A stretch of 64,000 nucleotides of DNA from Marinilabiliaceae bacterium (GTDB lineage: Bacteria > Bacteroidota > Bacteroidia > Bacteroidales > Marinilabiliaceae). This document shows positions 59,469 to 63,664 of the stretch, piece by piece (position 1 is the first letter of the stretch; every line of letters begins with the position of its first letter). The position numbers and the translations under genes are program-made. The notes under the pieces are model-generated. The model ran no database searches and was not told the DNA's origin. It saw only the letters and a program-made list of their open reading frames with translations. Location: NCBI GenBank assembly GCA_016933045.1, contig JAFGBR010000052.1, positions 1 through 64,000 of the forward strand, given 5' to 3'.

Positions 59469-59480
59469 TCTTCAAATTTT

Positions 59481-59504
59481 GTGACTCAGCTGGGGCTCGA
59501 ACCC
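59481..59504 (-). other. tRNA 3-prime fragment, putative attachment site
   Basis: The minus strand reads GGGTTCGAGC, CCCAG, then CTGAGTC and AC. This equals tRNA positions from the 3-prime half of the T stem through the TTCGAGC loop to a 7-nt acceptor strand and discriminator. Upstream of it the T stem fails (T-G and A-A) and no anticodon arm follows. A 3-prime tRNA end with a terminator but no 5-prime part is the usual left-over of site-specific integration. The parent tRNA would have acceptor GACTCAG, possibly tRNA-Lys. The element would extend rightward from here. Confidence 0.55.
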
Positions 59505-60110: not shown

Positions 60111-60866
60111 ATGGCAAGACAAAAGGGTATTATTAAACTGGAGGGTCGCATCGGCGATCTATCGTTTTACAAAAATGGAGGCGACTACCTGGCTCGTTCC
60201 AAAGGAGGAGTTGATGGTGACCGAATTAAAAATGATCCGGCATTTGCGCGGACACGTGAGAATGGATCTGAATTTGGAAGAGCCGGAAAGGCCAGCAAAC
60301 TGCTGAGATCGGCCTTAAAAGCTCCCATTTCTGTGGCATCGGACAAACAGGTTGCAAGCCGTTTGACGACTGCGTTACTGAAAGTAATCCAGGCGGATAC
60401 AACCAATGCACGTGGTGAAAGAACTGTTGTGGCCGGTGATTTGAATCTGCTTAAAGGATTCGAATTTAACAATGAAGCCGGACTGGAAGAGATTGTAAAA
60501 GCTCCTTACACTGTTGGGTATGATCGTGCAACCGGCGAAGTAGCCATTGCAATCGAGTTCACGAATCCGTCACTTGAGCTAAACCAGGTTGAAGGTGCTA
60601 CCCAGGCTCGTTTCACTGCCGGAATTGCATCGGTTGATTTCGAAAATAAGGAGTTTGATGTAGATGTGTTGCAAAGTGATGCTGTTGATCTGTCATCTGT
60701 AGCGGCAGCAACAATTAATGTTGCCCCGGGTATATCTGCCAATAGTGCGCTTCCTGTAATCATTGTGCTGGGTGTGGAGTATTACCAGACTGTTAATGGA
60801 CAACTTTACCTCATCAATAACAAAGAGAGTAGAGCTTTATCTGTTATCAATGTTGATTTACCTTAA
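60111..60866 (+). CDS. MARQKG-type conserved protein of Bacteroidota elements
   Basis: 251 residues without signal peptide or TM. The N-terminal 60 residues (MARQKGIIKLEGRIGDLSFY, GDYLARSKGGVDGDRI, DPAFARTRENGSEFGRAG) form a block I recognise from many hypothetical proteins in Bacteroidota, often in variable regions. The remainder (about 100-251) looks like an all-beta domain. The function is unknown to me. GC content is higher than in the neighbouring AT-rich stretches. The next gene, a small membrane protein, starts 29 bp later, so they likely form a unit. Confidence 0.75.
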   Translation: MARQKGIIKLEGRIGDLSFYKNGGDYLARSKGGVDGDRIKNDPAFARTRENGSEFGRAGKASKLLRSALKAPISVASDKQVASRLTTALLKVIQADTTNARGERTVVAGDLNLLKGFEFNNEAGLEEIVKAPYTVGYDRATGEVAIAIEFTNPSLELNQVEGATQARFTAGIASVDFENKEFDVDVLQSDAVDLSSVAAATINVAPGISANSALPVIIVLGVEYYQTVNGQLYLINNKESRALSVINVDLP

Positions 60867-61232: not shown

Positions 61233-61901
61233 ATGCTTTATGTCCTAATAATAGAAGCCAGGATTGATATGAAAGTTGATAAGTTTAGAGCTGATGGAGG
61301 ATCATATAAGCTATCTATTTTGCAAGTGATTAATAAGTATGCAAACAAGTTCTATATACGGGCAAACATGAACCAGTCTTTAGAAGAAGCCATCTCTCAA
61401 ATAAAAGAATGGAAAAAGATAGAATTAGATGAACATACTATATATCGTGGTTCCATTGACTTTTCTCCTTTCCAAAAAATTGCTAAACGAAACAAGCAGG
61501 AAGATTTGGTAAAACCATATAGACTGGTCGTTTTAAAAGAGCCAAGAGATGATGGGTAGTTAAATATTTTTACCGGGGAGGCATGCAACTATAAAGCTAT
61601 ACTGACCAATGATTATGAATTAACCGATGACGAAGTAGTGTTCTTCTACAATCAAAGAGGTGTAATAGAAAGGGAATTTGATGTGTTAAAAAACGATTTT
61701 GGATGGAACAACATGCCCTTTTCAAAGCTTGAGCAAAATACTGTTTTTCTTATGTTTAGTGCAATATGTCGTAATATATATCACCATATTATCAATAGCT
61801 TCTCCAAACGTTATGACTTTTTAAAACCTCATTATAGAATTAAAAAATTCATTTTTAGGTTTATTTGCATTCCCGCTAAATGGATAACTGGAGGCAGATA
61901 G
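61233..61901 (+). pseudogene. IS1380-family transposase remnant with in-frame TAG
   Basis: The central and C-terminal half of a DDE transposase. It has KVDKFRADGGSYKLSILQVI, a predicted beta-strand region, then FYNQRGVIEREFDVLKNDFGW and FSKLEQNTVFLMFSAICRN, which fit the IS1380 Y-(2)-R-x3-E type region. The N-terminal third is missing. The reading frame is broken once by TAG at 61557-61559. Codons on both sides (REPRDDG-like, then LNIFTGEACNYK) are in the same frame, so one substitution explains it. No clear terminal inverted repeats. An inactive relic. Confidence 0.8.
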
Positions 61902-62160
61902 CGTAAATTGAGGGTATTTGGTAATATAGCATTTAAAACATAGTTAGTCAGGCTATTCCTTTTGTAAAAAACTTATTGAATACAAAATAATAGCGGTGGC
62001 TAAATGGAGAACGAATACCCTTTTCTGATAAGAAAAAGGTATTTCGTAAATTATATTCCAGTTAACCACTTATATTCATACAAGAAAGTAATTCAAAATA
62101 TATCATAAACAGTATTGGAAAGTGAAAATCAGATTCATATCCTATCTTATTTTTAAACAT
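61902..62160. other. gene-free AT-rich stretch after the transposase relic
   Basis: No open frame or structured element is convincing here. It may contain the degraded right end of the insertion sequence. GC is very low (about 22 percent in the 62041-62100 line). Confidence 0.35.
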
Positions 62161-62560
62161 GCGGATTTTAGGTGCAAATCCGCGCCAGCGACAAATAAAG
62201 TGGAATGAAGTGAGGGCTTTTGACTGCCGGAAAGCGTAAGGCTGTTAGAGAGACGAAACGCAGAGTAGTTGAATTAACGGCTGAGCGTGTGTGGGTGCAA
62301 AAAGCATGACAGCCCCGAAGCCGACGGCGACCAGCAGGCGAGCCTAACATGGGCAGCCGGTGGATTGCTAAGTGCCAAACGAAATGAAGCCTATGGAACG
62401 TAAGGGCGTTGAGCGCAGCGAAGCCCTGAAGTGGAATATGGGCGAAATGAGAGAGGCTTTTAGCAAGACAAGGAAGGCTGCCATGATGAAGAAGGAAAGA
62501 GCTGCAAGAGGCATGACAGGCTGCGAAGTGCAAAGTAGCACCCGAAGGGATTGAATGCTT
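62161..62560 (+). ncRNA. GC-rich noncoding block, candidate structured RNA or dispersed repeat
   Basis: It starts with a perfect 8-bp hairpin: GCGGATTT (62161-62168), loop, AAATCCGC (62176-62183). The GC content then jumps (my counts per 60-base line: 48, 65 and 52 percent for 62221-62400) against about 22 percent just before. Many short complementary segments are visible (GGGC...GCCC around 62404-62427, GACAGCCCC near CGGCTGAGC, GGCAGCC...GTGCC). The open frames on both strands are low-complexity and unlike proteins. It may be a large noncoding RNA or a multi-copy element. I cannot name a known family. The strand is a guess. Confidence 0.45.
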
Positions 62561-62644
62561 AATCGTTGCCTTATAAACAAATAATAGAAAAGGTTGTGCA
62601 TGAAAGGCCTGGCAGGACTATTGCCGACTGACTGATGAAGAATG

Positions 62645-62787
62645 CCTTTCTTCCTTCAGCTGAAGAAAGGAACCAAAGAAAGCCGCCACTGATTGAAAAT
62701 TCCTAAAAATCAACTAACCAGACTAAAATCTACGAACTCGCTATCTCAAACAGCGCAGATTTCTTTACGTCTGCTTAATCGATTTTC
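62645..62787 (-). repeat. dispersed intergenic repeat, copy A
   Basis: Begins with hairpin CCTTTCTTC (62645-62653)/GAAGAAAGG (62662-62670), continues through ATTCCTAAAAAT, AACTCGCTATCTCAAACAGCGCAGA and ends TTTCTTAACAGAATT at the stop of the holin-like gene. It aligns with copy B at 63447-63605. It lies just after the stop codon of a minus-strand gene, and its last bases supply the final codons. Confidence 0.65.
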
Positions 62788-63354
62788 TTAACAGAATTTT
62801 TTAAAGGTGGTAGGATTGAAAAGTGATTTATTTTTATCGGAACTGCTTTTGCTGGAACCGAAGTAGTATGAGAGGACCATGCTGAACCCTGCAACCAGGG
62901 CTCCGAAAAGCTGATTGATGGGACCATTGGCTGTCATTGAATTAGGGCCAAGGATCATTAGGATGATGAGGCTAAAAAAAACAAGGACTACGATTGCAGC
63001 CAAAGTATTCATGAGCCAATCGCTTTTGCCAAGTGATTGAGCCATGACGATTTCACGTTTACGGGCATTTTCTTTATCGGAGAGAATGACTTTGGTTTCT
63101 TCGAGTTGTTGCTGGATATTTTGTAAGGCCAGCTTTTCGAGTACTACAGAGTGGGTGAGTTCGAGTTCTTTTAGACGGATTAGTAACTCGGGATTTCTGT
63201 TGATTTCTCTTTCCAGTTCTTCGGGTGTGTTGGTGTTAATGCCAGTGATTGTTTTTACCAGGTCGATAACTTTATTGGCAGTATCGCCGGTAATGAGGTT
63301 TGCGATTAGTGGCAGACCTTTTTTAATGAGTGTTTCTTTGATTTTGTTTGACAT
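62788..63354 (-). CDS. holin-like membrane protein (3TM holin type)
   Basis: 188 residues: a helical N-terminal half with coiled-coil character (residues 42-98, EELEREINRNPELLIRLKELEL), then SLGKSDWLMNTLAAIVVLVFF and two to three TM helices, and a charged tail (SSKSSSDKNK). The KSDWLMNT...PxxxR-like layout recalls the GTA/phage 3TM holin family. No endolysin is next to it in the window. It probably belongs to a phage-derived element. Confidence 0.65.
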   Translation of the reverse strand: MSNKIKETLIKKGLPLIANLITGDTANKVIDLVKTITGINTNTPEELEREINRNPELLIRLKELELTHSVVLEKLALQNIQQQLEETKVILSDKENARKREIVMAQSLGKSDWLMNTLAAIVVLVFFSLIILMILGPNSMTANGPINQLFGALVAGFSMVLSYYFGSSKSSSDKNKSLFNPTTFKKFC

Positions 63355-63664
63355 TGTGAAAGGTTTATAGGGTTAATTTTTTATCGCTTGATTAATGGAT
63401 TATATATGATTAATGTCTTATATGTCCTCAAGTCGGACAGGCTTTCCCTTTTCTCCTCCAGCAGAGAAAAGGAAACAAAAGATGCAACCGCTACAGAAGA
63501 ATCCCTAAAAATGTTAACAGTCGTCTAAATCTAGCGAAACTCACTGCACTCAGACAGCGCTGGCTTCTTAACAATGACTGTCCCCACTTTTTTAACGGAA
63601 TTCTTCTTAATGCGGAGGATTACACATTTGAGGTTCTTTACTATCCAATAGTAGAATTAAATGG
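63355..63664. other. intergenic region holding repeat copy B
   Basis: About 310 bp without a gene. The middle part is repeat copy B. The remainder is AT-rich and featureless. Confidence 0.5.
63447..63605 (-). repeat. dispersed intergenic repeat, copy B
   Basis: Begins with hairpin CCTTTTCTC (63447-63455)/GAGAAAAGG (63464-63472), then ATCCCTAAAAAT, AACTCACTGCACTCAGACAGCGCTGG, and ends TTTTTTAACGGAATT. Compared with copy A the stem differs at two positions on each side with pairing restored, and the loop is 8 nt in both. Confidence 0.65.

Follow-up and report, generated by a model that had tools for sequence, protein, structure and literature searches.

A GC-rich island in an integrative element at tRNA-Lys

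An integrative element of 9 kb, situated at tRNA-Lys and marked by two 30-bp repeats with a tyrosine integrase beside the second, holds the GC-rich island examined here, in keeping with the earlier note, which had placed the island in a mobile region. The integrative element begins inside the window, by which we mean the whole 64-kb stretch of DNA that was analysed, and runs from 59475 to position 68525 of contig C81. It is phage-satellite-like in size and contains the integrase, an HTH_17 protein, replication-type genes (recognised by eye), a protein that we call MARQ, and an RNA-like element. The features of the locus, with the evidence used to place them, are as follows.

59475–59504, strand not assigned: left att repeat, a copy of the tRNA-Lys 3′ end at contig C81 68496–68525 (outside the window)
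60111–60866, + strand: MARQ (name coined here), a 251-aa protein and recurring upstream neighbour of the family
61638–61901, + strand: transposase remnant, C-terminal piece, DDE_Tnp_1, between MARQ and the RNA-like element
62161–62295, + strand: 5′ end of the GC-rich island with an 8-bp hairpin, without significant similarity to the family's 5′ or middle domains
62296–62656, + strand: 3′ part of the structured family, consisting of 3′ core and 3′ domain (blastn, alignments A1 and A2, covariance model R1)
62319–62366, + strand: 3′ core (AGCC..GCGACCAGCAGGCGAGCCTAACATGGGCAGCCGG), whose GCAGGCGAGC pairs with the 5′ core in full-length members (alignments)
62352–62482, + strand: long stem GGCAGCC / GGCTGCC plus an inner variable stem (A2 helix counts)
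62468–62657, + strand: 3′ domain, with a CAGGC / GCCTG helix, the ACCCGAAGGG hairpin, an inner stem and the 3′ end TTTCTTCCT (A2 helices, R1)
62788–63354, − strand: 188-aa protein of the integrative element, matching phrog_1544

MARQ matched no Pfam or PHROG family. Its N-terminus is conserved, and its C-terminal part is predicted to form a beta-sandwich (mean pLDDT 73), a model that had only generic Ig/fibronectin-like structural matches. Inspection by eye alone suggests a membrane or holin-like character for the 188-aa protein. A DnaC-like ATPase (by eye; 63665 to C81 position 64316, − strand) seems to be split over two frames compared to its longer relatives at loci L032 and L039, possibly by a frameshift.

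Base composition changes abruptly at 62161, as had been reported, with a GC fraction of 0.280 at 61761–62160 rising to 0.525 at 62161–62560. The perfect 8-bp hairpin described as opening the island is present at 62161–62183 (GCGGATTT / AAATCCGC), and on the + strand of 62161–62560, where purine-rich motifs had been pointed out, G and A are in strong excess; the motif GAAGCCGACGGCGACC lies within the most conserved block of the family. The proposed extent of the island holds in part: 62296–62656 is homologous to the family, but 62161–62295, including the hairpin, had no significant relative in blastn, 5′-domain profile and pairwise searches. The folding energy of the window copy (z −1.76, with 4 of 100 shuffles equally good) is weak evidence by itself, and the copy is taken to exceed chance because of homology and covariation.

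The suggestion that the island might be a multi-copy repeat of the phylum applies to some relatives, which have several copies, but not to this genome, where the element is single-copy: the island sequence gave one blastn match in its own 3.9-Mb assembly (95% complete, 82 contigs), and a pattern search allowing up to 3 mismatches also gave one. A separate repeat (CTTCCTTCAGCTGAAGAAAGGAACCAAAGAAAGCCGCC...) at 62645–62815 and 63427–63492 begins where the structured element ends; the stretch at 62645–62815 has one match in the genome and is multi-copy in several related genomes.

Homologues, covariation and the 5′ half

A blastn search of 100 genomes, including that of the window, gave matches in 24; among the 99 others, 17 matched the element itself (some over short stretches) and 6 matched only the downstream repeat at 62645–62700. 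The best relative, L003, aligned with 62298–62656 over 362 columns at 74.6% identity (E 5.7e-58). Scanning one genome per species for 84,980 species with a 3′-core pattern returned 54 loci, 50 of which matched the family profiles (the 5′ profile in the case of L034, and for the other 49 the 3′ profile with E no higher than 1e-3), with about half of the 50 having themselves been profile rows and with L053 and L084 matching weakly. The remaining loci, L042, L050, L066 and L079, matched neither profile and were rejected as members; L050 stayed in the context and upstream-neighbour tables used below, and the other three were left out of them. Loci from blastn that duplicated pattern loci were also left out of the context tables. 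By title, 49 of the 50 profile-matching loci belong to Bacteroidota. The exception, L080, lies on a contig labelled Micrarchaeota, which is probably misbinned Bacteroidota sequence. L053 and L084, on contig NVXV01000004.1, are 3′-core matches ~1.1 kb apart on the same strand, assuming a common start of the fetched stretches.

Covariance model R1, built from 22 rows of the 3′ domain, matched 16 of 393 genomes of the order and 5 of 395 genomes of the phylum, the window's genome being included in both sets, and matched several times in some genomes (six in G287, five in G240, and three each in G006 and G138). R1 also matched the window at 62468–62657 (E 8.5e-33), a match that is not independent evidence because the window is among the 22 rows. 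Plasmids and phages gave no match to two blastn queries. In viral contigs, some of the three 3′-core patterns were without any match; the 3′-core search yielded 14 loci, two of which matched the profile weakly (E 0.001 and 0.005), and the 5′ core was found with a clear 5′-domain match in one contig (L144, from IMG/VR; E 4.6e-18). We found no description of this structured family in the literature searched, a comparison outside which lie the 3161 candidates in the supplementary tables of PMC8040213.

The 14 full-length members measure 507–683 nt and share a fold of 16 helices, with a closing stem (P1) that brings the ends together, a helix linking the two conserved cores, and a large multi-helix 3′ domain. 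Covariation was counted on structures predicted by RNAalifold from the same alignments, several rows of which are close relatives, and both of these circumstances favour the result: in A6 (the 14 full-length rows, 115 pairs), 92.3% of cells were paired compared to 78.9% after shuffling, and two-sided changes occurred at 65 of the 115 pairs compared to 35.8 in shuffles, with none of 500 shuffles reaching the observed value in any measure; in A2 (26 rows of the 3′ part, 70 pairs), 89.2% of cells were paired compared to 73.1%, two-sided changes occurred at 49 of the 70 pairs compared to 33.5, and none of 500 shuffles reached any of five measures. When the structures were slid along their alignments, only 33–45% (A6) and 31–44% (A2) of cells were paired. 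The first counts dropped 25 of the 70 A2 pairs (45 kept) and 6 of the 115 A6 pairs (109 kept), and repeat counts with no pair dropped agreed with them for both alignments. The homologue search and covariance analysis by which the earlier note had proposed to check its reading came out in its favour, with 50 profile-matching loci and two-sided changes above all 500 shuffles in both A2 and A6.

P1 pairs columns 2–12 of A6 with columns 739–749, with two-sided changes at 7 of 10 pairs. Measured without a predicted structure in 29 loci and with all 3′ anchors treated alike, the two ends of a locus were complementary over a mean of 7.9 bp, compared to 4.2 bp when partners were exchanged between loci (no more than 5.34 bp in 500 shuffles); L045, at a contig end and without a 3′ anchor, was dropped. 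An earlier form of the test picked each 3′ anchor by its stem, which favours the result, and had the same mean and the same conclusion. With the anchors used, P1 spanned at least 5 bp in 21 of the 29 loci and at most 3 bp in the other 8, all of them from Carboxylicivirga. The L080 member has an 11-bp closing stem and, by eye, recombinase-like tandem genes.

The helix between the cores joins GAGCCGCCTGC of the 5′ core to GCAGGCGAGC of the 3′ core by 17 pairs, of which 11 never vary in A6 and 2 show two-sided changes; mostly invariant, this helix therefore rests little on covariation. In A2, a local hairpin without two-sided changes is predicted within the 3′ core and competes with this helix. 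At the 45 selected A2 pairs, G·U occurred 42 times compared to 13 for A·C, and in helices 1–5 these counts were 18 and 0, an excess at paired columns that identifies the + strand as the folded strand. The fold of full-length L063 had a z of −8.5 (20 shuffles), and the unpaired positions of the element are purine-rich. TAnnTTTG, the Bacteroidota promoter consensus, occurred upstream of the conserved 5′ end in 5 of 30 cases compared to ~10% in mononucleotide shuffles and was not clearly enriched.

Stops occur in nearly all of the six frames across the 26 A2 rows, and a protein-coding gene or protein origin was rejected because no open frame is conserved, which agrees with the earlier note's view that the frames look like accidental translations. 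Absent covariation and a conserved protein frame, which that note had named as grounds against a structured RNA, were both looked for, and neither was found. An origin as a chance GC-rich stretch, a decayed gene for a protein or a functionless simple multi-copy repeat would accord with a window copy that folds only slightly better than shuffles and with the adjoining repeat at ~62645, which is multi-copy in some relatives, but such origins are at odds with conservation across Bacteroidota with compensatory changes, with stops in nearly all frames and with the single copy of the element in this genome. Covariation refutes such origins for the family, if not for the window copy, and we consider this group of explanations very improbable.

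An Rfam scan, also proposed in the earlier note, returned no family at its cut-offs. With Rfam 15, cmscan of the 64-kb window at the gathering score gave only a tRNA, and a looser scan of 61500–63000 (E up to 5) gave only four sub-threshold matches, all to other families. Five loci (L048, L073, L067, L058 and L074) scanned at E up to 0.5 gave, besides a tRNA, three sub-threshold matches, all to other families, with one of these matches (mir-998, in L058) lying opposite the element; nine further loci gave none at the gathering score. A group I or group II intron, another known ribozyme, or a relic of one could account for a large, GC-rich, structured and mobile sequence. Rfam also includes group II models, and a group II match was rejected, as no Rfam match at the cut-offs was found in the window and 14 other loci or in the looser scan of 61500–63000; nor did inspection by eye reveal a reverse transcriptase in the frames of L003–L005. 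These sources are extremely improbable. GOLLD, ROOL and OLE have Rfam profiles according to PMC12286853, and membership in any of them was rejected in the same window and 14 loci; Rfam's models thus give no match for the GOLLD/ROOL kind of RNA that had been raised for the island.

In the window copy, the counted pairs of the long stem are intact (7/7, 2/2 and 11/11) and helices 1, 2, 3, 5 and 6 of the A2 count are fully paired; helices 7 and 8 have only 2/4 and 6/13 pairs as aligned in A2. Of 52 loci, a set that includes the window and L050, 39 have the 5′ core (GCGAGTGGAGC) at most 800 nt upstream, and several of the 13 loci without it start near a contig end. In the window, this 11-mer was not found, the 5′-domain profile had no match at E up to 100, and searches for a diverged 5′ domain gave a best match of E 0.32 and a best pairwise z of 3.1 among the loci compared, which are not significant; a search upstream found no partner strand for the copy's 3′ closing strand. 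The window copy is the 3′ half only, with the 5′ domain and the closing-stem partner missing, and therefore cannot form the whole structure. The copy is probably a decaying remnant left by an IS-related truncation, of which the transposase remnant at 61638–61901 is a possible cause, and it may itself be dead. The idea of a large structured RNA is thus supported for the family, which covaries strongly and is without a conserved frame, but not for the window copy as a whole, of which only the 3′ half is present.

Neighbours of the relatives

Among the 34 loci with at least 2.5 kb of upstream sequence (the window and L041 included, L050 left out and close relatives counted separately), 25 carry DUF6266, MARQ, DUF6943 or an Rhs-type end in the upstream sequence available, as scored without a random-position control by four neighbour profiles built from these loci's own genes; the other 63 kb of the window had no further match to these profiles. 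In 11 genomes chosen for holding the element, DUF6266 gave 27 matches. The six best (E 7e-86 or better) coincide with the six genes next to the element, and the remaining 21 had E 2e-37 or worse. The DUF6266 structure model was poor (pLDDT 56). We found no literature on DUF6266, and that on DUF6943 and DUF5675 consisted of phage papers.

In many loci, the 5′ end of the element is separated by a few hundred bases from the start of a divergent gene of the DUF6266, DUF6943 or toxin-cassette kind. This arrangement and the ranking of the DUF6266 genes would fit a cis-acting regulatory leader or an antisense RNA for the divergent neighbour. However, the neighbour varies among DUF6266, MARQ on the other strand, DUF6943, Rhs or other toxin ends and none at all, a usual leader is much smaller than this structure, and no divergent gene of the DUF6266, DUF6943 or toxin-cassette type was recognised in the window; we regard a role in controlling the neighbour as rather unlikely.

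Mobile settings recur to differing degrees. The viral contig L144 carries the 5′ domain at its end, near DUF6266, holin-family and endolysin-family proteins and an integrase. Among 17 other loci of 17–20 kb, some of which hold little upstream sequence, a relative of the window's integrase is present in 2, and a typed tRNA lies within ~5.2 kb upstream of the core in 4 (L089, L091, L092 and L095); L088 has a tRNA call of undetermined type.

Cassette arrays provide a further setting. G287 has 8 similar units in a stretch of 80 kb, every one on the same strand, with blocks that are ~90–98% identical, and each unit lies antisense beside a toxin-type C-terminal cassette; the one cassette examined has ~78 bp of the main gene's core at its start. 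Six of the 8 units are followed by two recombinase-type genes, and the other 2 by a primase-type gene without them. The block in common with the first copy ends at the 3′ end of the element in 5 of the 7 other copies. Pfam placed two proteins of the first unit in the phage-integrase family and also recognised a CHC2/Toprim primase-like protein and a helix-turn-helix protein there. Of two copies in G006, the second has an Rhs-type cassette on either side; Pfam gave no Rhs match for these two cassettes, and the NCBIfam Rhs core domain was present in all five sequences tested (both G006 cassettes and frames near L071, L085 and L040). Loci L135–L139 (G287:C1 170000–249999 and 290000–305000) form an array of repeating ~10-kb units with the element between units; a unit comprises a toxin-type C-terminal end and an immunity-type gene (both by eye), an HTH regulator, a CHC2-type primase and two tyrosine recombinases, as identified by Pfam in one unit.

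Because of these cassette arrays, the main rival to an RNA is a folded single-stranded DNA site for tyrosine recombinases, resembling integron attC, or another kind of cassette boundary. The single strand of the G287 units, their place beside toxin-type cassettes, the recombinase-type genes and the conserved block ending at the element's 3′ end all fit such a site, as do recombinase-like pairs just downstream in 6 further loci (by eye, one with a phmmer match), closing stems that resemble inverted ends, and the recurring position at recombinases and cassette junctions. Nevertheless, the recombinase cluster is found in only 7 of 52 context loci, an element of ~0.5–0.7 kb with 16 helices is far above the size of attC, and its stems vary in sequence while keeping their pairing, unlike recombinase-bound ends. 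The folded strand is also purine-rich and uses G·U as RNAs do, although G·T is tolerated in DNA as well. On this balance, we think a DNA site unlikely.

Interpretation and comparison with known systems

That the element is structured and acts as the + strand is established by covariation, strand asymmetry and lack of coding; its size, its setting and its purine-rich unpaired positions favour RNA. We hold it highly likely that the sequence belongs to a structured RNA family of which the window copy is truncated. As an explanation of the whole, a 5′-truncated copy of a large structured noncoding family that occurs in Bacteroidota (in the collections searched) and in mobile or variable islands is the best available and a likely one. 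Such an element would be transcribed and act as RNA, in trans most likely, as a large self-folding RNA belonging to its mobile element, and by analogy it might be expressed upon induction of the mobile element, as suggested for GOLLD and ROOL. Among possible roles, a GOLLD/ROOL-like one as a mobile-element RNA is the most likely, a tentative proposal drawn from the same analogy. More speculative still is the idea that these sequences represent a third, unrelated giant mobile-element RNA family besides GOLLD and ROOL, associated with phage-lysis-type elements and with arrays of orphan polymorphic-toxin cassettes, which might form an RNA particle or, as a folded strand, aid cassette exchange.

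We know of no giant mobile-element RNA family in Bacteroidota, and of few RNAs of comparable size and structure in bacteria. With its ends defined, its secondary structure complete and its hosts named, Draconibacterium orientale being one with a full-length member, the Bacteroidota family is a testable object, and its link to lysis-type islands and toxin-cassette arrays makes the role of such RNAs for mobile elements directly approachable.

Integron attC sites are folded recombination sites several times smaller than the members of this family. Like attC, the element is a folded structure at cassette junctions with one orientation within an array (G287); in contrast to attC, it has many covarying helices as well as its greater size, and a recombinase-type neighbour in only the minority of context loci given above. 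OLE, as described in PMC9723947, resembles the family in its length of ~600 nt, intricate structure and highly conserved nucleotides, but published accounts place OLE in Gram-positive hosts, in a membrane ribonucleoprotein, and its Rfam model had no match here. The functions of GOLLD, ROOL and OLE are described as poorly understood in PMC12286853, which reports GOLLD and ROOL as prophage- and phage-encoded, often near tRNA islands and of unknown function, with GOLLD raised during lysis. Besides lacking a match to the GOLLD model, the family differs from GOLLD in the length of its members (507–683 nt compared to more than 800 nt for many GOLLD RNAs) and has its hosts in Bacteroidota; from ROOL it differs in lacking a match to that model. 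The recurring neighbours of the family are DUF6266, MARQ and toxin cassettes. The likeness to RNAs of the GOLLD/ROOL kind lies in the large covarying secondary structure of the family, of which the window copy keeps only the 3′ half. A mobile setting is seen in the window, with att repeats and an integrase at tRNA-Lys, and in the viral contig L144; across the family it is partial.
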